This document shows, one piece after another, positions 10,885 through 64,000 of a stretch of 64,000 nucleotides of DNA. The DNA comes from Natrialbaceae archaeon AArc-T1-2 (lineage in GTDB: Archaea > Halobacteriota > Halobacteria > Halobacteriales > Natrialbaceae): assembly GCF_030273315.1 (NCBI RefSeq), contig NZ_CP127174.1, forward strand, positions 2,418,001-2,482,000. Reading direction: 5' to 3'. The notes beneath the pieces are model-generated. The model made no database searches. It saw only the letters and a program-made list of their open reading frames with translations, and was not told where the DNA came from. Positions within the stretch are counted from its first letter, which is position 1. Each line of letters begins with the position of its first letter. The position numbers and the translations under genes are program-made.

Positions 10885-11145
10885 CTAGCGCAGCCGTCCC
10901 TGCCACGAACAGGACGTACAAGCGAACAGTCCCACGCCGTTTATCGTCTCACTCTCACAGGCCGGACAGACCGTCGTCCCGACCCGACCGTCCGGGCCGT
11001 CGGCCGACACCAACACGCCGCGGGCCCGCCCGGCGCGCACCGACCGTCCCCGCTCGTGGCCGCGGTACGGAAAGACTGCCTGCAGTGTCGGTTTCGCGTC
11101 CGGTTCGGCGTCCGCTGTCGTCGGAAGTTCGAGTTTGGGCGTCAT
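10885..11145 (-). CDS. Small zinc-ribbon protein
   Basis: The 86-residue protein has a basic, Arg-rich middle and a single C-terminal zinc ribbon, CPACESETINGVGLFACTSC, ending SWQGRLR. The rest is low in motif. It is convergent with the aminotransferase and divergent from the ArsA-type ATPase gene. It belongs to the many small zinc-binding proteins of haloarchaea; I cannot assign the exact family. Confidence 0.6.
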   Translation of the reverse strand: MTPKLELPTTADAEPDAKPTLQAVFPYRGHERGRSVRAGRARGVLVSADGPDGRVGTTVCPACESETINGVGLFACTSCSWQGRLR

Positions 11146-11361
11146 GGTTGTGAGGGCGAACGAACCGCCACCTGGTCCGAGTCGTCCTGAGTAACGATAG
11201 TCATGCAGTTAACATTATCCATTAACGACGTTTAATACTGATATGTATCATTGAATGGGATATAATGTCGGCCGGCAGGGGATAACGGGACACGCTGACG
11301 AGACGCGTCGGCGGTGGCCGAGACCGACGAATACACGTGTGGTGACCCGGTACAGTGGCGT

Positions 11362-12600
11362 ATGAGTGGACTCGACGTCGAACCGGCCGAGGGAGACGAG
11401 GAGGCAGGCGACAACACGATCGAGGTGACGCCGACGGAGTCCGTCGACGACGAGCGCGAGACGGTCGACGTCGAGGACGACGGCGGGTCGATCGACGGCC
11501 CCGAGTACGTCCTCTACGGCGGGAAAGGCGGCGTCGGAAAGACGACGATGGCCGCCGCGACCGCGCTCGACAGCGCCCGACGGGGCGTGCGCACGCTCGT
11601 GGTCTCGACCGACCCGGCTCACTCGCTGTCGGACGCGTTCGACACCGACGTCGGCACGAAACCGGAGCCCATCCACGAGACGTATCCGCTGTTCGGGGTC
11701 GAGATCGATCCCGACGCCGCCCTCGAGGAGGGGGCAGCGATCTTCGGCGGCGCGGACGAGTCGGGAGACGGGGGGTGGGACGGTGACGACGCGACCGCGG
11801 CGTGGGACGACGATACGGGAAACGCCGATCCGATGGGCGGTCCCGGCGCGGGCGGTCCGATGGGCGGACTCGGCGGTGACGGGCCGATGGGCGGACTCGG
11901 CGAGATGCTCGGCGAGGACTCCCCGATGGAGGCGATGTTCGGCGGCACCATGCCCGGTGCCGACGAGGCAGCGGCGATGCAGACGCTGCTCGAGTACTTA
12001 GACGACGACCGGTTCGACCGCGTGGTCGTCGATACGGCCCCGACGGGACACACCCTCCGACTGCTCCAGTTACCCGAGATCATGGACTCGATGGTCGGCC
12101 GAATCATGACGATGCGCCAGCGCATCGGGAGCATGCTCGAGGGCGTGAAGGGGATGTTCGGCGGGGAGACACCCGACGAGGGCGACGACCTCGAGGACTT
12201 GGAGGAGCTTCGCGATCGCATCGAGCGGCTCCGGGCCGCCCTGCGCGATCCGAACCGGACCGATTTTAGGATCGTTCTCGTCCCCGAGGAGATGAGCGTC
12301 TACGAGTCCGAACGCCTCGAATCCCAGCTCTCCGAGTTCGACATCCCGGTCGGAACCGTCGTCGTCAACCGCGTGATGGAGCCGCTCGCGGACGTCACCG
12401 ACGACGTCGACGACGAGGCGTTTCTCAGCCCCGACCTCGACGAGTGTGAGTTCTGTCAACGTCGCTGGGACGTCCAGCAGGCCGCGCTCGCCGAGGCACA
12501 GGATCTCTTCCGGGGGGTCGAGGTCAAACGCGTCCCGCTGTTCGCCGACGAAGTCCGCGGCGAGGACCACCTCGAGGTCGTCGCGGCCTGTCTGCGCTGA
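11362..12600 (+). CDS. ArsA/Get3-type ATPase
   Basis: This 412-residue P-loop ATPase of the SIMIBI class contains the deviant Walker A YGGKGGVGKTTMAAAT near residue 50, STDPAHSLSDAF, the DTAPTGHTLRLL switch near residue 220 and a CEFC pair near residue 368. In the family the protein either drives arsenite efflux (ArsA) or targets tail-anchored membrane proteins (Get3). No arsenite efflux gene is near. Between residues 145 and 195 lies a Gly/Met-rich stretch with repeated GPMGGLG, in the region where Get3 proteins bind hydrophobic clients. This favours a targeting role but does not prove it. I chose the ATG at 11362; an upstream in-frame ATG at 11314 is possible. Confidence 0.85.
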   Translation: MSGLDVEPAEGDEEAGDNTIEVTPTESVDDERETVDVEDDGGSIDGPEYVLYGGKGGVGKTTMAAATALDSARRGVRTLVVSTDPAHSLSDAFDTDVGTKPEPIHETYPLFGVEIDPDAALEEGAAIFGGADESGDGGWDGDDATAAWDDDTGNADPMGGPGAGGPMGGLGGDGPMGGLGEMLGEDSPMEAMFGGTMPGADEAAAMQTLLEYLDDDRFDRVVVDTAPTGHTLRLLQLPEIMDSMVGRIMTMRQRIGSMLEGVKGMFGGETPDEGDDLEDLEELRDRIERLRAALRDPNRTDFRIVLVPEEMSVYESERLESQLSEFDIPVGTVVVNRVMEPLADVTDDVDDEAFLSPDLDECEFCQRRWDVQQAALAEAQDLFRGVEVKRVPLFADEVRGEDHLEVVAACLR

Positions 12601-12622
12601 GCCGCAGGCGACGGGTTACCGC

Positions 12623-13855
12623 TTACCGCCCGAGATCCTCGTGTGCGCTCGCGAGGTGTCGCGAGGAAAGCGCCGCGAGCAAGGAGAGTTCGCCGGCGAG
12701 TGCGCCGACGGCGATCACCTCCGCCAGCGCATCGGCGTTGCTGCCGGGTGGATCGCCGCCGCCTGCGAGGCCGATCGTCTCGAGCGCTTCCCGTTGTGTG
12801 GGCAGTTTCGTCCCGCCGCCGACGGTGCCGACCTCGAGCGAGGCGAGCGAGACGGAGGCGTAGAGATCGGTCGTCCCACCTTCGCCCTCGCGCGTGTCCA
12901 TCGTCGTGATGGCGTTTGCCCCTTCGACGACCTGGGCCTCGTCCTGGCCGGTCGCGAGGAAGGCCGCGGCGACGACGTTCGCGGCGTGGGCGTTGAACCC
13001 GAGGCTGCCGGCTTTGGCGCTCCCGGTCAGGTTCTTGCGGGTGTTCGCCTCGACGATGCCCCCGGCGGTCGTGTGGAGTCGGTCCTCGAGCAACTCCCCG
13101 GGAATCACGACGTCGGCCGTTACCGACCGGCCCCGGCCCTCGACGGCGTTGATCGCGGCGGGTTTCTTGTCCGAACAGAGGTTGCCCGACAGCGCCACGA
13201 GGTCGGCGGGGGTCTCGGCCTCGACGAGGTCACAGGCCTCCCGGGTCGCGATGGTGGCCATGTTCATCCCCATCGCGTCTTTGGTGTCGTAGGCGAACCG
13301 GAGGTAGACGGAGTCGCCGACGACGTACGGCTCGACCCCGAGCAGTTCGCCGTGACTCGTCGTCGACTCGGCTGCCTCTCGCAACGGCTCGACGTTGTCG
13401 TCGACCCACTCGACAGTCGCGGCCGCCTCGGCGACGCCGTCGACCCGGAACACGGGCGCGCGGGTCATCCCCGTCTTGGTGACGCGGGCGGTCGCGCCGC
13501 CGGCCGCGCGGATAACGGAGAGGCCGCGGTTAACCGACGCGAGCAACGCCCCCTCGGTCGTCGCGAGCGGGAGGTAGTACGCGCCGTCTGCGGCGCTGCC
13601 GTCGATGCCGACCGGTCCCGCGACGCCCATCGGCACCTGCGCCGCGCCGATCATGTTCTCGATGTTCGGCTCGGCCCGTTTCGCTTCGAAGCTGTAGTCG
13701 GCGACGGTCTCGAGGGTGGCGTCGGTCTCGCGTTCGAGCACCAGTCGACGCGCCTCGGCGGCGACGTCGTGGTCGGCGTGGTCTTCGAGTTCGTGGATCC
13801 GGAGATCGCCGTCGGCGACACGGTCGGCGAGGTCTGCGGGATCGGTCGTGGTCAT
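12623..13855 (-). CDS. hmgA: Hydroxymethylglutaryl-CoA reductase (NADPH)
   Basis: The 410-residue enzyme makes mevalonate for isoprenoid (archaeal lipid) synthesis and is the classic statin target. Class I signatures are present in order: PNIENMIGAAQVPMGVAGP, TKDAMGMNMATIAT, GNLCSDKKPAAINAV with the catalytic Asp-Lys-Lys, VGTVGGGTKLPTQ, and a C-terminal SSRHLASAHEDL carrying the catalytic His region. The stop is convergent with the ArsA-type gene, 22 nt away. The start at 13855 is the family start. Confidence 0.97.
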   Translation of the reverse strand: MTTTDPADLADRVADGDLRIHELEDHADHDVAAEARRLVLERETDATLETVADYSFEAKRAEPNIENMIGAAQVPMGVAGPVGIDGSAADGAYYLPLATTEGALLASVNRGLSVIRAAGGATARVTKTGMTRAPVFRVDGVAEAAATVEWVDDNVEPLREAAESTTSHGELLGVEPYVVGDSVYLRFAYDTKDAMGMNMATIATREACDLVEAETPADLVALSGNLCSDKKPAAINAVEGRGRSVTADVVIPGELLEDRLHTTAGGIVEANTRKNLTGSAKAGSLGFNAHAANVVAAAFLATGQDEAQVVEGANAITTMDTREGEGGTTDLYASVSLASLEVGTVGGGTKLPTQREALETIGLAGGGDPPGSNADALAEVIAVGALAGELSLLAALSSRHLASAHEDLGR

Positions 13856-57744: not shown

Positions 57745-57990
57745 ATGAACAAGCACTTCGAAGACGCCTGGTACTACCTCACCCGCGCCAGCGAACACGC
57801 CAGACTCGGCCTCGAAGAACAGCTCGAGCCGGTCACGACGAAATTCCGCGAGCTGAGCGGCCACGAACCCGAACCCGAACCGGACCGTCTCGAGGCATTG
57901 CTCGCAGACGCTCGAGGACGTGATCGCGTGGGATTTTCGAAAGGAAGGCTTAAGTTGGACCGTCAGGTACCGTCGAACGCGGGTTGGTGA
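57745..57990 (+). CDS. DUF7553-like protein, probably shortened
   Basis: The 81-residue protein starts MNKHFEDAWYYLTRASEHAR with LGLEEQLEPVTTKFRELSG and EPEPEPDRLEALL, the front half of the haloarchaeal DUF7553-like coiled-coil family. Members continue with another 20-40 helical residues. Here the frame ends GFSKGRLKLDRQVPSNAGW, a non-helical tail that runs over the tRNA promoter and into the first bases of tRNA-Val. This looks like loss of the original 3' end next to the tRNA, possibly during integration or by a frameshift, and what remains may be non-functional. Confidence 0.55.
   Translation: MNKHFEDAWYYLTRASEHARLGLEEQLEPVTTKFRELSGHEPEPEPDRLEALLADARGRDRVGFSKGRLKLDRQVPSNAGW
57948..57955 (+). 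promoter_or_regulatory. TATA box of tRNA-Val
   Basis: GCTTAAGT lies 26-33 nt before the tRNA. It sits inside the 3' part of the 57745 frame. Confidence 0.5.
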
Positions 57991-58055
57991 TCTAGTCCGG
58001 TTATGATACCTCCTTCACACGGAGGAAGTCGGCAGTTCAAATCTGCCCCAACCCA
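57981..58055 (+). tRNA. tRNA-Val (anticodon CAC)
   Basis: The 75-nt cloverleaf has acceptor arms GGGTTGG and CCAACCC with discriminator A. The anticodon stem is CCTCC/GGAGG with loop TTCACAC (anticodon CAC), and the T-arm is GGCAG/CTGCC around TTCAAAT. No CCA is encoded and no intron is present. The tRNA 3' end is the usual target of archaeal integrases, and unlike DNA begins immediately after it. I therefore treat it as the left attachment site. Confidence 0.93.
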
Positions 58056-58369
58056 CTCGTAATTTAATCGAAGTTGAATCACGCGACGGCGGTTGATTCG
58101 AGGGGATACGCCCCCTGTTCTCGCGGTGCATTGATGCGCTCGATGCACGATCGTATGAGCGACCATCCAGCCGGGTAGCGAATCGTTTGAAGGAGCAGTC
58201 CCATAAACCCCGACGATCGGTTAGGGTCGAGAGCAACGACGCACCCCCGGACTCGGTGCGTGCCGCGACGATCGTTCCCCGAGCGAGAGTAAGCGACGAC
58301 GGTCCAAACCAAGCGCACCCCCACCCCGGGGTAGGGGGTTCTATGCGCCACCAAAACGTACAGTAAGTA
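58056..58369. other. 314-nt non-coding left end of the integrated element
   Basis: No supported gene is here; a minus-strand frame overlaps the start of the next gene and has no domain. The stretch contains a TGCAT/ATGCA inverted pair near 58126-58146 and the C/G-run palindrome at 58313-58348. It probably carries part of the attachment region and the promoter for the 58370 gene. Confidence 0.5.
58313..58348. repeat. C5AC4/G4TAG5 palindrome upstream of the 58370 gene
   Basis: GCGCA and TGCGC arms (58313-58317, 58344-58348) enclose CCCCCACCCC and GGGGTAGGGGG. The structure ends 22 nt before the ATG. Related palindromes recur at 59321 and 59492 but nowhere else I saw. It may be an operator, a transcription stop or a G-rich structure. 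Confidence 0.65.
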
Positions 58370-59320
58370 ATGACAGACCCGACCGAACACTCCCCCGAAG
58401 ACGTCGAATCGATGGAGCACTACGAACGCCAGCAAATCGCCGGTCAATACGGGGTAGACGCGAATCTCTCCGGGGACGAGTTACTAACAGAATTGAAAAA
58501 CGCCGTGCGGGAACCAACGCCAGGAGTCGCCAGTCAGTACTCCCGCGAGGACATCGAGAGCATGGAGTACTACGACTGGCAAGCACTCGCGCCCGATCTT
58601 GGTGTTGAGCCGAATCAGTCCCCAAACGAACTCGAAGAGCAGCTGCTAGACGCAGTCGAGAGCAGTGAGAGCAGCGACGACGAGAACGACGAGGCGCAAC
58701 CCGAGGCACAGGACGAACCCGTTGAGGACGCGCGTGAGAGCGACGACGATGAGAAGGAACCGGTCGAGACTGAGCAAGCAGAGTTGGTCGCGTGGGAGCG
58801 TGACGAACCCGAGAATGAGATCGATTACGAGTCACTACGTTTCGAACCCGAGACCGACGACGAAGAAATCGATACGCGAGTAGACATCGATATCGCAGAT
58901 TACTACGACGACTCACCTACTGAAGACGCAAGACAGGGCAGTGACGAGACGGACGGGGAAGGCAACGGGGTAGCGAGAGTAGCGAGAAAGCTTAGAGTCG
59001 AAGGTGAGACGCGTCACTTGAGGAAAGAGTGCATCACGTGCGCGTCGCCCGCGACGATTCACTACGGTGATGAGAAAGCGCTGTGCGAAGGGTGCAACAC
59101 GATCTACCCGATTGACTCGCTCGCACCGAACCGTGACAACAACGACGACGAGCAGGAACCGGTCGAGCACCAAGGTGGAATCGAGAGCGAATGCCCGTCT
59201 TGTGAAGGGCGAGTGACTTGCGCCGGTGCGCGCGCCGTGTGCCGCGAGTGCCAGTCAATCTTCCGAGTCGATCGAGAGAGTGACGATGAACTGACTCTCG
59301 CAGACGCGTTCTCAGCGTAA
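58370..59320 (+). CDS. Acidic protein with two SAP-like repeats and two zinc ribbons
   Basis: The 316-residue protein starts with a duplicated module of about 40 residues: EDVESMEHYERQQIAGQYGV (about 8-50), then EDIESMEYYDWQALAPDLGV (about 62-103). Each ends in an LLxxLxxAV-type helix, like SAP/LEM-type DNA-binding helices. A long acidic linker follows (about 105-205). The C-terminus has two zinc ribbons, CITCASPATIHYGDEKALCEGC (in two parts) and CPSCEGRVTCAGAR with CREC. It could be a DNA-binding regulator or a DNA-packaging/partition factor. No family recognised. Confidence 0.7.
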   Translation: MTDPTEHSPEDVESMEHYERQQIAGQYGVDANLSGDELLTELKNAVREPTPGVASQYSREDIESMEYYDWQALAPDLGVEPNQSPNELEEQLLDAVESSESSDDENDEAQPEAQDEPVEDARESDDDEKEPVETEQAELVAWERDEPENEIDYESLRFEPETDDEEIDTRVDIDIADYYDDSPTEDARQGSDETDGEGNGVARVARKLRVEGETRHLRKECITCASPATIHYGDEKALCEGCNTIYPIDSLAPNRDNNDDEQEPVEHQGGIESECPSCEGRVTCAGARAVCRECQSIFRVDRESDDELTLADAFSA

Positions 59321-59351
59321 GCGCACCCCCACCCCCCGGGGGAGGGGGTAG
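59321..59351. repeat. C/G-run palindrome directly after the 58370 gene
   Basis: GCGCACCCCCACCCCCC and GGGGGAGGGGG meet at 59337/59338, starting right after the stop TAA, and are followed by TAGAATT. The position suggests a terminator here, though the upstream copy before the same gene argues for a binding site. Confidence 0.6.
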
Positions 59352-59491
59352 AATTACTGATTATACTACTATCATAGACCCCGTTTTTGGAAGATAATGA
59401 CCCTAAACACCCCCTTCAAACCACCGTTCCGACGCGTCAAAATCGTTTAGAAGTGTTCTAAAGCTCTTAGCAACAGCGCCATCAACCCCGT

Positions 59492-59538
59492 TAACCCCCA
59501 CCCCGGGGGTACCCCCACCCCCGGGGAGGGGTGTAGTT
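59492..59538. repeat. Tandem pair of C/G-run palindromes
   Basis: Two copies of the CCCCCACCCC(C)GGGG pattern are fused: ACCCCCACCCCGGGGGT followed by ACCCCCACCCCCGGGGAGGGG. The block is bounded by TTAA and GTAGTTAG. It resembles the repeats at 58313 and 59321 and could bind the same factor. Confidence 0.6.
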
Positions 59539-59543
59539 AGTGC

Positions 59544-59673
59544 ACGTTTTGTCCAGAAATCAGCGAGTGAACCAGTGACGACGCGAAACCGACGACGGCG
59601 TTATAGTGAGAGCGAACAAGTCGTGCAGAGAGCGGCGAAAGTAGTTGACCCGTGACCGAACGTTTTGTCCAGA
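59544..59673 (+). repeat. Direct repeat ACGTTTTGTCCAGA, two copies
   Basis: Exact 14-bp copies lie at 59544-59557 and 59660-59673, 116 bp apart in the same orientation, between the C/G palindromes and the iteron region. They may be binding sites for a replication or maintenance protein. Confidence 0.6.
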
Positions 59674-59746
59674 GTCGAGTCGTGGCCGCACGGGGAATTG
59701 TCGTCGGTGAGTCGATCATGCAGTGACGGATCGATTGGTGACGGCG

Positions 59747-60014
59747 GCTAGGGTACCCTCACCAGCACCCTCCCCACCAAAAACGCAAGAAGGCGTACGG
59801 GTCGAGTGAGGGTGGCTAGGGTGGTTAGGGTGGAGACCAAGGGTATCCCTATCTTTACCCTTCTATGATCTTATGTTCTTGTTTTAGTTCTTACCTCTTC
59901 ATTTCCAGCTTCTGAATTTACCCTAGCCACCCTAACCACCTACCAGTTATCCTTACGCCGTATGGCGATTTTAGTGGGGAGGGTAGTGGAAAGGGTACCC
60001 TCTCCACCCTCTCC
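59747..60014. other. Candidate replication origin of the integrated element
   Basis: An AT-rich core (about 59847-59922; many TTTA/TTCT runs) is flanked by inverted iterons. On the left GGGTGGCTAGGGTGGTTAGG lies at about 59810-59829, and on the right ACCCTAGCCACCCTAACCAC lies at about 59920-59939. Further out, GGGTACCC palindromes (59751-59758, 59993-60000) and GTGG/CCAC-rich blocks frame it. The region lies upstream of the helicase gene, as in many plasmid and virus replicons. The function is inferred from structure only. Confidence 0.6.
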
Positions 60015-60070
60015 ATCGACTCGGTGAATATGGGTTGACTCATCGATTCTCAACTGGCGACGGCAACGGT

Positions 60071-60153
60071 TGTAATTTGGTCAGATTGTGAGTCTCTAAC
60101 CCGGACTGTGAGTAGAGTAATAATCCTGATATTGATTTTGTAAATTGGTCAGA
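60071..60153 (+). repeat. Direct repeat TGTAAWTTGGTCAGA, two copies
   Basis: TGTAATTTGGTCAGA at 60071-60085 and TGTAAATTGGTCAGA at 60139-60153 differ at one base and lie 68 bp apart, just right of the iteron block. They may be binding sites linked to the origin. Confidence 0.55.
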
Positions 60154-60218
60154 ACGGCATTCTCTCGCACGTACTCGTAGTCTCGCCAGTGTCAGTTAGT
60201 GGGTGAGTCGCGCAAAGG

Positions 60219-60228
60219 TTTTATAAGG
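60219..60228 (+). promoter_or_regulatory. TATA-like element before the replication operon
   Basis: TTTTATAAGG is the best TATA-like sequence before the genes starting at 60436. If it is used, the transcript carries a leader of about 190 nt containing the CACTTCC repeats; this is unusual for haloarchaea. Confidence 0.45.
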
Positions 60229-60286
60229 ATACGAGACTTACATAGGATTAGACGGAAACCCAACCGGCACTGATCGATACTTCAAA

Positions 60287-60390
60287 TCCACTTCCCACTT
60301 CGATTCATTCCCGCCGGTCAGAAAGCGACGACCCACGCACTCGACTCAATTCAATTCACTTCCGCGTGGTTCACTTCCGACTCACTTCCC
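60287..60390 (+). repeat. CACTTCC short repeats ahead of the replication operon
   Basis: Copies of (T/C)CACTTCC are seen at about 60288-60295, 60356-60363, 60371-60378 and 60382-60389; the last three are spaced 11-15 bp, near one helix turn. The helical spacing suggests cooperative protein binding, for example by a Rep protein controlling its operon. Confidence 0.5.
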
Positions 60391-60435
60391 GGGTCGTCGC
60401 CGGTTCCGTACACAAGCGAACATCGGTGAACCACG

Positions 60436-60690
60436 ATGGAAAACCCAAACACAACAGACACGAACGGAGACAAGCCCGCCCGAATCACTTTCGATAACGG
60501 CGAGACGACAGAGACGATCGACGCAGCGCACCACTTTGTGAACAAGGATCGGTGCGTGTGCATCTACGAGTTCGCGCGCGAAACGGGGATCGATCTGCGA
60601 ATCCCGCTCGAATCTGTGTACAGCATCGACACGCGCGGTAGTGTAGTCGAGAAAATTTGTAGTTCTGGTTGCAACGGGGGTGAGCGGTAA
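60436..60690 (+). CDS. 84-residue hypothetical element protein
   Basis: The protein starts MENPNTTDTNGDKPARITFD and has ETTETIDAAHHFVNKDRCVC and IYEFARETGIDLRIPLESVY, with a Cys-rich tail SSGCNGGER. Its stop overlaps the next start by one base (TAATG). It is in an operon with the zinc-ribbon protein and the helicase. No family recognised. Confidence 0.6.
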   Translation: MENPNTTDTNGDKPARITFDNGETTETIDAAHHFVNKDRCVCIYEFARETGIDLRIPLESVYSIDTRGSVVEKICSSGCNGGER

Positions 60691-60953
60691 TGGCGACGAA
60701 CGACGAGACCCCACGCGAAATGCAGCAGGAAGACGTCTTCCGTGCGATTTGTCCAGTTTGCGAGTCGCACGACGTTTACACTCGACCCTTCGAGCACGTG
60801 TGTTGGTGTCGTGGATGCGGTGAGCAGGCGGATGAAGTGACGTGCGCGTTAGCGTGGGAATCCAAGTATCTGAGCGAAGAGGAGCAGGAACAGCGCGAGC
60901 AGGATCGATACCGCTACGACATGGTTTTCAGCGCACCGCGAGGTGAGCGATAG
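60690..60953 (+). CDS. 87-residue zinc-ribbon element protein
   Basis: The protein has one zinc ribbon, AICPVCESHDVYTRPFEHVC with CWCRGCGEQADEVTC, and a charged C-terminal helix (YLSEEEQEQREQDRYRYDMV). It starts within the preceding stop and the helicase ATG follows its stop directly. It could be a DNA-binding or partner protein of the helicase. Confidence 0.65.
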   Translation: MATNDETPREMQQEDVFRAICPVCESHDVYTRPFEHVCWCRGCGEQADEVTCALAWESKYLSEEEQEQREQDRYRYDMVFSAPRGER

Positions 60954-63785
60954 ATGGCGAACGACGACGGTGACGAGTGGGCGGATGAGCGGTTCGGCGA
61001 CGCGGGCGGTGCGAGCGGTGACGACGAGCGCATGGAGGGTCGACACGTCCCTGACGGGGACGACGAGTACGAACAATTCGATCTTGGACTCGGTGAGAGC
61101 GACGATGAAAGCGATGGGAGTGTCGAGTACGACGCCGATCAATTCTTCGCCGAGAGCGATGAGAGCGATGAGAGTGACGTTTTAGAGGCGGAGTACGGCG
61201 CGGAAGATCTCACTCTCGAAGAAGTGTTCGCCAAGATCGAGCGCGACGGTGTCGACGCGGTCTCGATCGAGACGCGCGAAGAGATCGTGCAGGCGCACGA
61301 GGAATCGACTCTCGACGTGTTAGGCGAGGTCGGTGCGGTGCACCCCTCGAATCTCGAAGTGTACAGGTGGTACGAGGTGCTTGAGCAGTACAAGGCGATC
61401 GAAGCCACTCCGGGCACCCCGAAGCGCCCAGCTAGAGAGTTGGCGGTGAAGACGCTTGAGTACGAGTACGAGTGGATGTGTATTAGCGACCGGTCGAAGC
61501 CCGGGAAGTACGACTTGTGGACGTACGACGCGGAAACCGGGTGGTCGAACGACGGGTCGAGCGTGATCCGTGAAGTGATGTCTGAGGAGTTGGACGGTCA
61601 CGCGACTGAATCTGAGTGCAATCACGTTGAGCACTTAATCGCTAACAGGCACAAGGTGCACAGTGACGAGTTAGACGCTGGCAACATTGACGAGACGTTA
61701 ATCCCGCTCGAAGACGGCGTTCTCGTGCTCGAATCCCTGGATTTAGACGATGACGGTCGGATTGATCCAGGGACCGCGGAAATCAAGCCTCACGACCCTG
61801 AGCACCGCTTCACGTACAGACTTAACGCCGCGTGGAATCCGGACTCTGCGAAACTCGAAAGAGTAGACGCATTCCTCGAAAATCTCACGTCGGACGCGAC
61901 AGGCGAGCGAGACGAGGACTTGATTTGGGAATGGTTCGGTCACACCCTTACCCCAGAGTACGAACCGAAAGGATTCTTCATTCTGCACGGGAACGGGAAT
62001 AACGGGAAAAGCCTGTTATTCGAACTGTTAATCCAGGTTCTCGGTGAGGAGAACACGTCAGGAACTCCGCTCTCGAAAATCGTTGATAACCGGTTCTCGT
62101 CGTCAAGAGTCGTTGATCGAATGGCGAATATCGCGCCGGACATCGCCGGAACGATCATTTCGGACATTAGCGATTTGAAAGCGCACACTGGTAACGACAA
62201 GGTCGAAGTTGAGCCGAAGGGGAAGCCCGCGTACGACGCGTACAACAGCGCTACGATGTTGTTCGGGGCGAATGAGCCGCCCGCGTTCGTTGAACAGTCG
62301 GACGCGGTGAAAGACAGGTTGTATCACGTTGAGTTACCGTACCGTTTCGTCTCGGATCCGGACCCGGATGATCCGGCGCAGAAACAGGCTAAGTCACGTT
62401 CAGAGTTACTCGATGAGCTCACGTCGGACGGTGCGCTCGCAGCAGTACTGTACCGAATGGTTGAGGGTGCACGGCGCATCCAAGTGCACGGGGATTTCAG
62501 CGACGATCGAACGCCGGACGAGCGGATGGAATCGTACGAGGAGGAAGCCGATCCGATCGCGTCGCTGGCGCGTTTCGCGTTCGAGAATGACCCGAGTGCC
62601 GCGGTTGCGCTCGACGACATCAAAACCTTGTACGATAAGCTGGCCCCGCAGCGTGGTTGGCCGCAGAAGGATAAGAAAACGATCGGTAAAGGACTCGGTC
62701 GGTTAACGAGCTTAACGTTCTCGACCGGTCACTACTTGCGTTCGTGGGGTTCTGAAGACGGTGACCGCCCGCACGTGTACAAAGGAATCAGATTCACCGG
62801 GGACGCTGTCGACACACTCGGTGAGGACACGACTCACGCGGACAGGTACCGTGAGCAGTTAGGACTCACTGACGAGTCGGGTGACGACGAGTCGAGTGAC
62901 CCGGTGACGCCGCTCAACGAGTTAGAACCGGGACGGTTCGACCTTCGAGGAACGATCGATAACGTGCGTGACGAGCCGGTGCCGTGGTTGGACGATCAAG
63001 GAGTTGTGCGTGACGAGACTGACTCGTACAGGTACGAGATCGTTGAGAGTCGAGAGTTCGCGGACGCGGGCGAAGGAGCGGAAGTGCTTGTCAAGGACGC
63101 TATCGTCACGTCGGATGAAGCCGATCTTAAGATCCAAGTCGTTGCCGGGTTGACGGAAGTGCTCGTCATCGATACGGGTGACCGGGACGATGATCAGCGC
63201 CGAGTAGACGAAACCCCAGCCAATCCTGAAGAGCTTGAACCGGAATCGAGTGAAGGAGACGAAGCGGTACCAGTGCCGGAAGACGCCCTCGAAACCGTGA
63301 CTGACGAGATCGAAGGTGTGAGTGACAAGACGGGTGACTGGGAAATAACGACTGTCGAAATCGAAGGCCCTGGGAAACTCGACATGTGGTACGTCGATCA
63401 CCGTGACGTAGCGCACGATCGTGAGAGAGGACCGTACAAGGTTCACGCGCACGAGAACGGTTGGACTTGGATGTACGTCGGTGAGATGGAAATGTTCTCC
63501 CGTGCTGAGGATCGACTCGACGAATTAGTCCCTGTTGAAGAGCACATCGAACAGACAGAGACACCGGAAGCCCCGCCTCAAAGTCAGCGGAAAACAAGCA
63601 TCTACCACCGGGTTAGAAAGGTAGATGAGTCGCAGGAAGATGAAGGCGCGGACGTGTCGACAGTCGTTGCTATTGAAGCCGGGAATCTCTGTTTACACCC
63701 TTCGACAGTACAGCGAGATATTGAGTCGATGATTGAATCCGGTCGTCTCACCGAAGTCGCCGAAGGGCGGGTGATGCAATCTTGA
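60954..63785 (+). CDS. SF3-type replication helicase (D5/P4-primase-like)
   Basis: The 943-residue protein has an acidic start (1-70), a D5_N-like region (about 150-320: DLWTYDAETGWSNDGSSVIR, IPLEDGVLVLESLDLDDDGR) and an SF3 ATPase. The ATPase has Walker A ILHGNGNNGKSLLFELLI (about 343-360), Walker B near DIAGTIISDISDLKAHTG and motif C NSATMLFGANEPPAF. The stretch about 655-745 (GRFDLRGTIDNVRDEPVPWL) may be an OB-fold. The last 70 residues form a winged-helix-like end (STVVAIEAGNLCLHPSTVQR). No primase catalytic motif is obvious. It probably unwinds and initiates replication of the element. The stop overlaps the next start. Confidence 0.85.
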   Translation: MANDDGDEWADERFGDAGGASGDDERMEGRHVPDGDDEYEQFDLGLGESDDESDGSVEYDADQFFAESDESDESDVLEAEYGAEDLTLEEVFAKIERDGVDAVSIETREEIVQAHEESTLDVLGEVGAVHPSNLEVYRWYEVLEQYKAIEATPGTPKRPARELAVKTLEYEYEWMCISDRSKPGKYDLWTYDAETGWSNDGSSVIREVMSEELDGHATESECNHVEHLIANRHKVHSDELDAGNIDETLIPLEDGVLVLESLDLDDDGRIDPGTAEIKPHDPEHRFTYRLNAAWNPDSAKLERVDAFLENLTSDATGERDEDLIWEWFGHTLTPEYEPKGFFILHGNGNNGKSLLFELLIQVLGEENTSGTPLSKIVDNRFSSSRVVDRMANIAPDIAGTIISDISDLKAHTGNDKVEVEPKGKPAYDAYNSATMLFGANEPPAFVEQSDAVKDRLYHVELPYRFVSDPDPDDPAQKQAKSRSELLDELTSDGALAAVLYRMVEGARRIQVHGDFSDDRTPDERMESYEEEADPIASLARFAFENDPSAAVALDDIKTLYDKLAPQRGWPQKDKKTIGKGLGRLTSLTFSTGHYLRSWGSEDGDRPHVYKGIRFTGDAVDTLGEDTTHADRYREQLGLTDESGDDESSDPVTPLNELEPGRFDLRGTIDNVRDEPVPWLDDQGVVRDETDSYRYEIVESREFADAGEGAEVLVKDAIVTSDEADLKIQVVAGLTEVLVIDTGDRDDDQRRVDETPANPEELEPESSEGDEAVPVPEDALETVTDEIEGVSDKTGDWEITTVEIEGPGKLDMWYVDHRDVAHDRERGPYKVHAHENGWTWMYVGEMEMFSRAEDRLDELVPVEEHIEQTETPEAPPQSQRKTSIYHRVRKVDESQEDEGADVSTVVAIEAGNLCLHPSTVQRDIESMIESGRLTEVAEGRVMQS

Positions 63786-64000
63786 GCCGAGCGCAACGGG
63801 TCAAGTCGCGCTCAAAGTCGGCGAAGCTACGCCCGTACAAAGCTGATTTACTCGCAAATCTCCCGCGCCCTGAGTACCGGTGGCGGTGGTCTGAGTGCGA
63901 TTTGTCGCCTCGAATCCTTAATTGGCTTCGAGACCGCGGGCACGTCGAGCAGGTTCGGCGAGGTTGGTGGCGGACAACCGGAGAGATAGCCGAGTACGTC
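63782..64000 (+). CDS. Winged-helix-like element protein, 5' part
   Basis: A TTG start overlaps the helicase stop (TTGA at 63782-63785), and the frame stays open to the edge (73 codons). It reads SRAQRVKSRSKSAKLRPYKA, then WRWSECDLSPRILNWLRDRG and WWRTTGEIAEYV. This looks like a basic N-terminus followed by a winged-helix DNA-binding domain. The rest lies beyond the edge. Confidence 0.6.
   Translation, partial: MSRAQRVKSRSKSAKLRPYKADLLANLPRPEYRWRWSECDLSPRILNWLRDRGHVEQVRRGWWRTTGEIAEYV

Follow-up and report, generated by a model that had tools for sequence, protein, structure and literature searches.

What is the function of the long inverted repeat that precedes a helicase gene in an integrated element of Natrialbaceae archaeon AArc-T1-2? 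The window, that is, the whole stretch analysed (64,000 nucleotides, positions 2,418,001 to 2,482,000 of NZ_CP127174.1), comes from a 3.36-Mb genome; the repeat lies in a 1.1-kb part of it without a plausible gene (59320–60436), and the gene of a D5/P4-type superfamily 3 (SF3) helicase (60954–63785) starts 0.9 kb 3' of the repeat. We propose, with a probability of about 0.82, that replication of a provirus, once it has been excised as a circle, starts at this segment, and that the iterons would be bound by the D5/P4-type SF3 helicase which the element itself encodes. The segment is composed as follows (window positions).

59736–60015, no strand: predicted replication origin, a long imperfect inverted repeat with an AT-rich core
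59736–59831, + strand: left arm, 96 nt
59750–59759, no strand: left outer palindrome AGGGTACCCT
59779–59790, + strand: constant second element, left copy AAAAACGCAAGA
59810–59833, + strand: inner left iterons GGGTGGCTA and GGGTGGTTA, then a partial third, GGGTGG (59828–59833)
59832–59919, no strand: AT-rich core, the presumed unwinding region
59917–59923: GGGTAAA, junction of the right iterons to the core
59920–60015, − strand: right arm, 96 nt
59924–59941, − strand: inner right iterons GGGTGGCTA (59924–59932) and AGGTGGTTA (59933–59941, one mismatch)
59961–59972, − strand: constant second element, right copy AAAATCGCCATA
59992–60001, no strand: right outer palindrome AGGGTACCCT

The inverted repeat is the strongest of the window, with a score of 46 against 22 for the runner-up and at most 17 in 8-kb shuffles. 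Its arms (G+C 0.625 and 0.55) are 74% complementary and enclose a loop of 88 nt with a G+C of 0.375, within which, at 59861, the lowest-GC 60-mer of the region 58043–63940 begins. From the outside inwards, each arm consists of the AGGGTACCCT palindrome with inverse half-words, the constant element, and tandem 9-bp iterons pointing at the core. The word GGGTGGYTA occurs exactly three times in the window, always inside the repeat (59810–59818 and 59819–59827 on the + strand, 59924–59932 on the − strand), as compared with a shuffle expectation of 0.18, and the shuffles never reached three. The earlier note's description of inverted iterons around an AT-rich stretch, with outer palindromes adding to the symmetry, is thereby borne out.

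The decision for an origin rests on comparison with relatives, in which the geometry is kept beside the helicase gene and the words differ. With the helicase protein as query, 50 of the 392 genomes sampled from the order gave relatives, and the best inverted repeat was sought anywhere in up to ~20 kb around each helicase gene; the search was ungapped and misses origins with unequal arms, and several of the loci are draft contigs. The repeat lies 5' of the helicase gene in the present element and in the loci L037, L038, L039, L040, L042, L044, L045, L046, L048, L049, L060 and L061 (L040 is the same sequence as pHTUR06; L060 and L061 are Halarchaeum pCBA1220-05 and pCBA1220-04), and 3' of it in L072, L074, L077, L079, L080, L082, L087, L089, L097, L099, L100, L103, L106 and a Halomarina plasmid. 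The 5' position is that of the close subfamily of this element, and the 3' position is that of many distant archaeal relatives. In 22 of 54 loci, the best repeat of about 15 kb of DNA has its centre no more than 600 bp from an end of the helicase gene, with 4.2 expected and none of 200,000 simulations above 15; the present element, with its repeat centre 1,078 bp from the gene, is outside this set. As the loci are phylogenetically non-independent, the P values overstate the evidence, yet the words and the surroundings vary widely. Several elements have no gene between the repeat and the helicase gene, which makes the helicase the partner that stays constant, and the layout is also found on autonomous circular plasmids (pHTUR06, pCBA1220-04, pCBA1220-05 and a Halomarina plasmid). 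A 55-kb Halomarina plasmid record (L063, NZ_CP119995) consists of repeated ~16.35-kb units, each with an origin and a helicase gene, and is either a multimer or an assembly artefact.

What varies is the word, which differs per element (GGTAGAGG, CGGACAAG, GTCCAAG, GGTCAGGG, GGTCCG, GTGACCGAG, GTGTCGGAG, ACGTCCAAT, TGAGTCAAT, GATGTGCGG, GATGTAGTC and others), and some of the words are not G-rich; what is constant is the geometry, with a tandem pair on either side of a central spacer, of period 9 or 10 and in opposite orientation. Of the 46 gene-adjacent inverted repeats, 25 have tandem pairs, as against 16 of the 174 others (P = 2e-10). In the gene-adjacent repeats, arm self-similarity has its peaks at lag 9 (z = 9.9) and lag 10 (z = 6.8), with none at 6, 12 or 15, whereas inverted repeats elsewhere, in mostly coding DNA, give the lags 6, 9, 12 and 15 of codon periodicity; lag-9 self-similarity alone was rejected as an origin mark, since the codon series produces it too. 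Between word similarity and initiator similarity there is a weak trend (Spearman 0.12, over non-independent pairs), weak because the words change faster than the helicase. The resemblance to telomeric G-rich repeats, on which the earlier note had remarked, is incidental: relatives keep the geometry with TGAGTCAAT, ACGTCCAAT, GATGTAGTC or GGTCCG, and we rejected the idea that the G-rich unit is kept for its telomere-like sequence. Nor are inverted tandem pairs out of the ordinary in archaeal elements with this type of helicase.

A prediction fixed in writing before new loci were examined was then applied to 15 testable new loci, each of which passed if its best inverted repeat was at most 2.2 kb away on the 5' side of the helicase gene or 0.6 kb away on the 3' side. 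Twelve of the 15 passed as against 2.6 expected, a number that a million simulations never reached. The lag-9 peak recurred (P = 0.0005; 0.018 after correction over lags), and further words came to light, such as GGTGGTCTAGGTGGTCTAGG in L165 and ATATCCAGGGTATCCGGGG in L160. Among the 12 passes, L155, L157, L158 and L167 have the repeat without an obvious tandem pair, and L161 is closely related to L100 of the discovery set. Absence of the iterons from relatives with a conserved helicase had been named as grounds for abandoning the origin; that comparison has now been made and the proposal withstands it, so an origin next to an initiator/helicase gene is probably right and, as far as sequence comparison goes, well supported.

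The constant element, which separates the outer part of each arm from the inner one, is not mentioned in the earlier note. The motif AAAACCGCAAGACGGC and its variants adjoin an inverse iteron and stay unchanged as the iteron word changes; they are found in this element and in L040, L043, L045, L046, L049, L082 and L106. The pattern, picked after the data were seen, is 28-fold enriched in origin regions (11 occurrences there, 17 in all other DNA). Among the held-out loci, L153 has the motif next to the iteron in each of its two arms, and L155 has it at −270. At a guess, the motif might serve as a second protein site or for priming. A small CGC..GCG hairpin pattern around the element proved too loose to discriminate. 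Extra CGCAAGACGGC-like constant elements lie off the origin in pHTUR06 (L059), ~1.7 and 2.9–3.2 kb 5' of the helicase gene, and are perhaps a second control site.

The position of the repeat ahead of an operon, which comprises the following features, raises the question of transcriptional control.

60219–60228, + strand: possible TATA box TTTTATAAGG of the helicase operon, as read from the sequence, ~200 bp past the repeat
60436–60690, + strand: 84-aa open reading frame (ORF) between the predicted origin and the helicase gene
60690–60953, + strand: 87-aa ORF with possible zinc-ribbon cysteines
60954–63785, + strand: D5/P4-type SF3 helicase of 943 aa, the presumed initiator (TIGR01613, 4.5e-33; DUF5906; D5_N)

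The repeats could be an operator, binding a repressor of the 60436–63785 operon or of a lysogeny switch and having no part in replication; inverted repeats are common as operators, and this one is 5' of the operon. We regard this as improbable, although the best of the alternatives: the likely TATA box is well past the repeat, 280 bp around an AT-rich core would be unusual for an operator, and a sizeable group of relatives has the repeat 3' of the helicase gene, where it is unusable as an operator of that gene. A double role of the segment, as origin and operator, is possible.

If the segment is an origin, the D5/P4-type SF3 helicase of the element would bind the 9-bp iterons as double-stranded DNA, and its C-terminal winged helix would probably read the iteron pairs. 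The two inverted clusters would load two helicase rings head-to-head across the AT-rich core, the core would melt between the opposed rings, and host replication proteins would copy outwards in both directions. The identity of the binding protein, the double-ring loading and the bidirectional start are inferred here. As the word changes from element to element, an origin and its initiator are probably mutually specific. The winged helix region of the helicase lies at about residues 531–615, according to alignment to the Pox_D5 regions of relatives, and the family profile matches PDB 7ola (2.3e-36), an entry titled 'DNA primase', across both the helicase and the sequence that follows; neither a catalytic primase domain nor a Prim-Pol domain was found in the 943-aa protein. 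The initiators of L100 and L161 (90% identical) have a common word and a common C-terminal region, while the initiator of L097 differs from them in word, with ~70–90% identity in the helicase core and ~40–50% in the C-terminal region, which points to the C-terminal domain as the reader of the word. The Rep protein of Staphylococcus aureus pathogenicity islands (SaPI) and Cch2, a homologue of SaPI5 Rep, read their iterons via the C-terminal domain (PMC7581432).

The arms might instead work by pairing, as a hairpin or cruciform origin of the kind published for pRN1 in the stem-loop and rolling-circle models. Folded as single-stranded DNA, the segment is better than all 200 shuffles (z = −6.25), and deletions within the pRN1 stem-loop abolish replication (PMC4234260, PMC3869888). 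Against this, the arms are complementary in only 74% of positions and the loop is 88 nt long, the arms are made of tandem direct repeats that pairing does not need, the outer and inner words stand in mixed orientation within one arm, and no nicking endonuclease was recognised beside the segment. Cch2 binding, moreover, was abolished by deletion of the direct repeats and not by deletion of the inverted ones (PMC7581432). A pairing origin appears slightly less probable still than an operator. For structured RNA, an Rfam scan of 58000–60960 gave a tRNA only.

Two further explanations have very little in their favour. A partition site (centromere) of the circular form would fit with the iteron-like arrays that are also present at partition sites, but the constant neighbour is the helicase gene, the ParA genes of pCBA1220-04 and PL47 are elsewhere, and no ParA was recognised in the scanned part of the element. 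An origin recognition box (ORB) origin dependent on Orc1/Cdc6, the usual haloarchaeal type, is just as improbable: haloarchaeal chromosomal origins do have G-rich inverted elements around an AT-rich region, but the element has no Orc1/Cdc6 domain (the copies of the genome are at other places), and the word varies per element along with a different initiator family.

Several observations weigh against an iteron origin read by the helicase or limit the case for it. The ungapped search gave no such repeat in about half of the loci, most of these being distant. GC skew gave no clear signal in the element and four circular relatives; in pCBA1220-04 the skew minimum falls at the repeat (+34 bp), with a skew range no larger than in block-shuffled controls. 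Because two small ORFs separate the predicted origin from the helicase gene, another protein could be the iteron binder. The co-variation of word and C-terminal domain is a single case, the winged helix of the 943-aa helicase alone was not detected by Pfam, and a single-sequence structure model of this region is poor (predicted local distance difference test, pLDDT, 49.7). A search of IMG/VR gave no close relatives of the element, two distant loci showed no clear origin, and a Halorubrum tailed virus (L066) has no such repeat near its helicase gene. As no close relative of the element was found, single bases of the 280 bp lack individual support. The origin function of the segment as a whole is nonetheless very probable.

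The element that would use this origin is an integrated one of 25,216 bp, from window position 58043 to window-equivalent 83258, with a G+C of 0.556 against 0.634 in the flank. Its left boundary is as follows.

57981–58056, + strand: tRNA-Val (CAC), the integration target
58043–58059, + strand: left attachment repeat CTGCCCCAACCCACTCG (right copy at window-equivalent 83242–83258, beyond the window)

The 17-bp direct repeat CTGCCCCAACCCACTCG is present at both element ends, the left copy lying at the 3' end of tRNA-Val, and a tyrosine-recombinase-like ORF, named from sequence and position, is close to the right end. The element ATPase shares 46.5% identity with its counterpart in Haloarcula hispanica pleomorphic viruses 3 and 4 (HHPV3/HHPV4), and the neighbouring genes match PHROGs 3232, 2231, 1938 and 3526 in this order, with names assigned by order and size. 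By this ordered block of pleolipoviral structural genes plus ATPase, the element is classified as a pleolipovirus-like provirus. At 25.2 kb it exceeds the 7–16 kb given for known pleolipoviruses, and the D5-type helicase replaces their replication genes. Two large tandem genes (L004:8969–11038 and 11035–13218), each with a twin-arginine-like signal and each matching phrog_2231 (the spike position), are possibly a duplicated spike, and a gene of 1026 aa (window-equivalent 78451–81531) resembles a combined restriction-modification enzyme, as named from its sequence. Between the upstream ORF and the predicted origin there are C/G-rich palindromes (CCCCACCCCCCGGGGGAGGGGG and relatives, 59327–59351 and 59494–59536), possibly terminators. 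Short direct repeats occur twice each on both sides of the predicted origin, ACGTTTTGTCCAGA on the left (59544–59557 and 59660–59673) and TTGTAAWTTGGTCAGA on the right (60070 and 60138).

The main value of the finding is the design shared across elements. A layout common to dozens of related elements, each with its own word, suggests an undescribed class of archaeal origins; in the open-access literature we found no description of the origin of haloarchaeal elements with D5/P4-type helicases. With such helicases in 50 of the 392 sampled genomes, the layout provides a rule by which their origins can be sought and a prediction of which of them are compatible, and it offers compact origins for vectors.

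Known systems resemble this segment to different degrees. In phage P4, the winged helix of the alpha helicase reads the origin repeats, as summarised in PMC4234260, and the same part is proposed as the reader here; P4 alpha differs in its bacterial-type primase domain, and P4 has a second site, crr. The Rep-Arvir origin of the betapleolipovirus SNJ2 is a provirus origin involving an inverted repeat (PMC13107129), as proposed for the present pleolipovirus-type provirus, but SNJ2 uses a nicking endonuclease and a hairpin 3' of its gene, where this element, with similar structural genes, has a D5-type helicase and tandem iterons. Origins of phage-inducible chromosomal islands (PICI), which belong to Pri-Rep/Rep-ori modules, have two iteron sets flanking an AT-rich region (PMC6092414), and PICI and SaPI origins share with this one the layout and the position beside the gene of a related initiator helicase. 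The differences are the archaeal host and provirus, the strict mirroring of the tandem 9-bp pairs, the extra constant element in the arms, the helicase without a detected primase domain, and the position of the origin, 5' of the gene in this subfamily and immediately 3' in PICIs. That a PICI-like layout occurs in archaea suggests that these initiators either have a deep common ancestry or have converged strongly.

The pRN1-type origin likewise adjoins an SF3 helicase gene and consists of an inverted repeat around an AT-rich core. In the crenarchaeal (Sulfolobus) plasmid pRN1, which has the archaeal origin of this helicase type that we found to be mapped by experiment, a 100-bp inverted repeat is necessary and, together with the replication operon, sufficient; its authors present it as a stem-loop without iterons (PMC4234260), and another group proposed rolling-circle replication (PMC3869888). 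In our re-reading of the pRN1 family, the arms have a tandem pair of period 9, as here: those of pRN1 read TTATGTCCATAGTGTCCAACT, that is, TGTCCATAG followed by TGTCCAAC, a 9-bp pair; pHEN7 has the pair TGTCACCAC and TGTCACAAC, pRN2 has GGAC twice at a distance of 9, and pDL10 shows no clear tandem pair. A second strong inverted repeat of pRN2 (L107, 546–647, score 23) is ~0.5 kb from the helicase-adjacent one. The inverted 9-bp pair of pRN1 encloses an AT-rich core of 58 nt and adjoins a gene with D5_N, DUF5906 and Pox_D5 domains; unlike the present element, pRN1 has one pair per arm, an origin 3' of the gene, and a Prim-Pol domain in the initiator. All eight 3-bp deletions in the pRN1 loop were fatal, and the loop was called insensitive to base substitution (PMC3869888); this pattern would be easier to reconcile with a set distance between two bound clusters than with nicking inside the loop. 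Taken together, we consider the odds to be slightly in favour of one origin design shared by bacterial PICIs and archaeal elements with D5/P4-type SF3 helicases, from haloarchaeal proviruses and plasmids to pRN1: tandem 9-bp pairs inverted about a melting core, with a word particular to each element, read by the C-terminal winged helix of the initiator. The pRN1 'stem-loop' would then be an iteron origin, and, if this is true, the iteron reading bears on the conflict between the rolling-circle and stem-loop models of pRN1 and gives a direct test.
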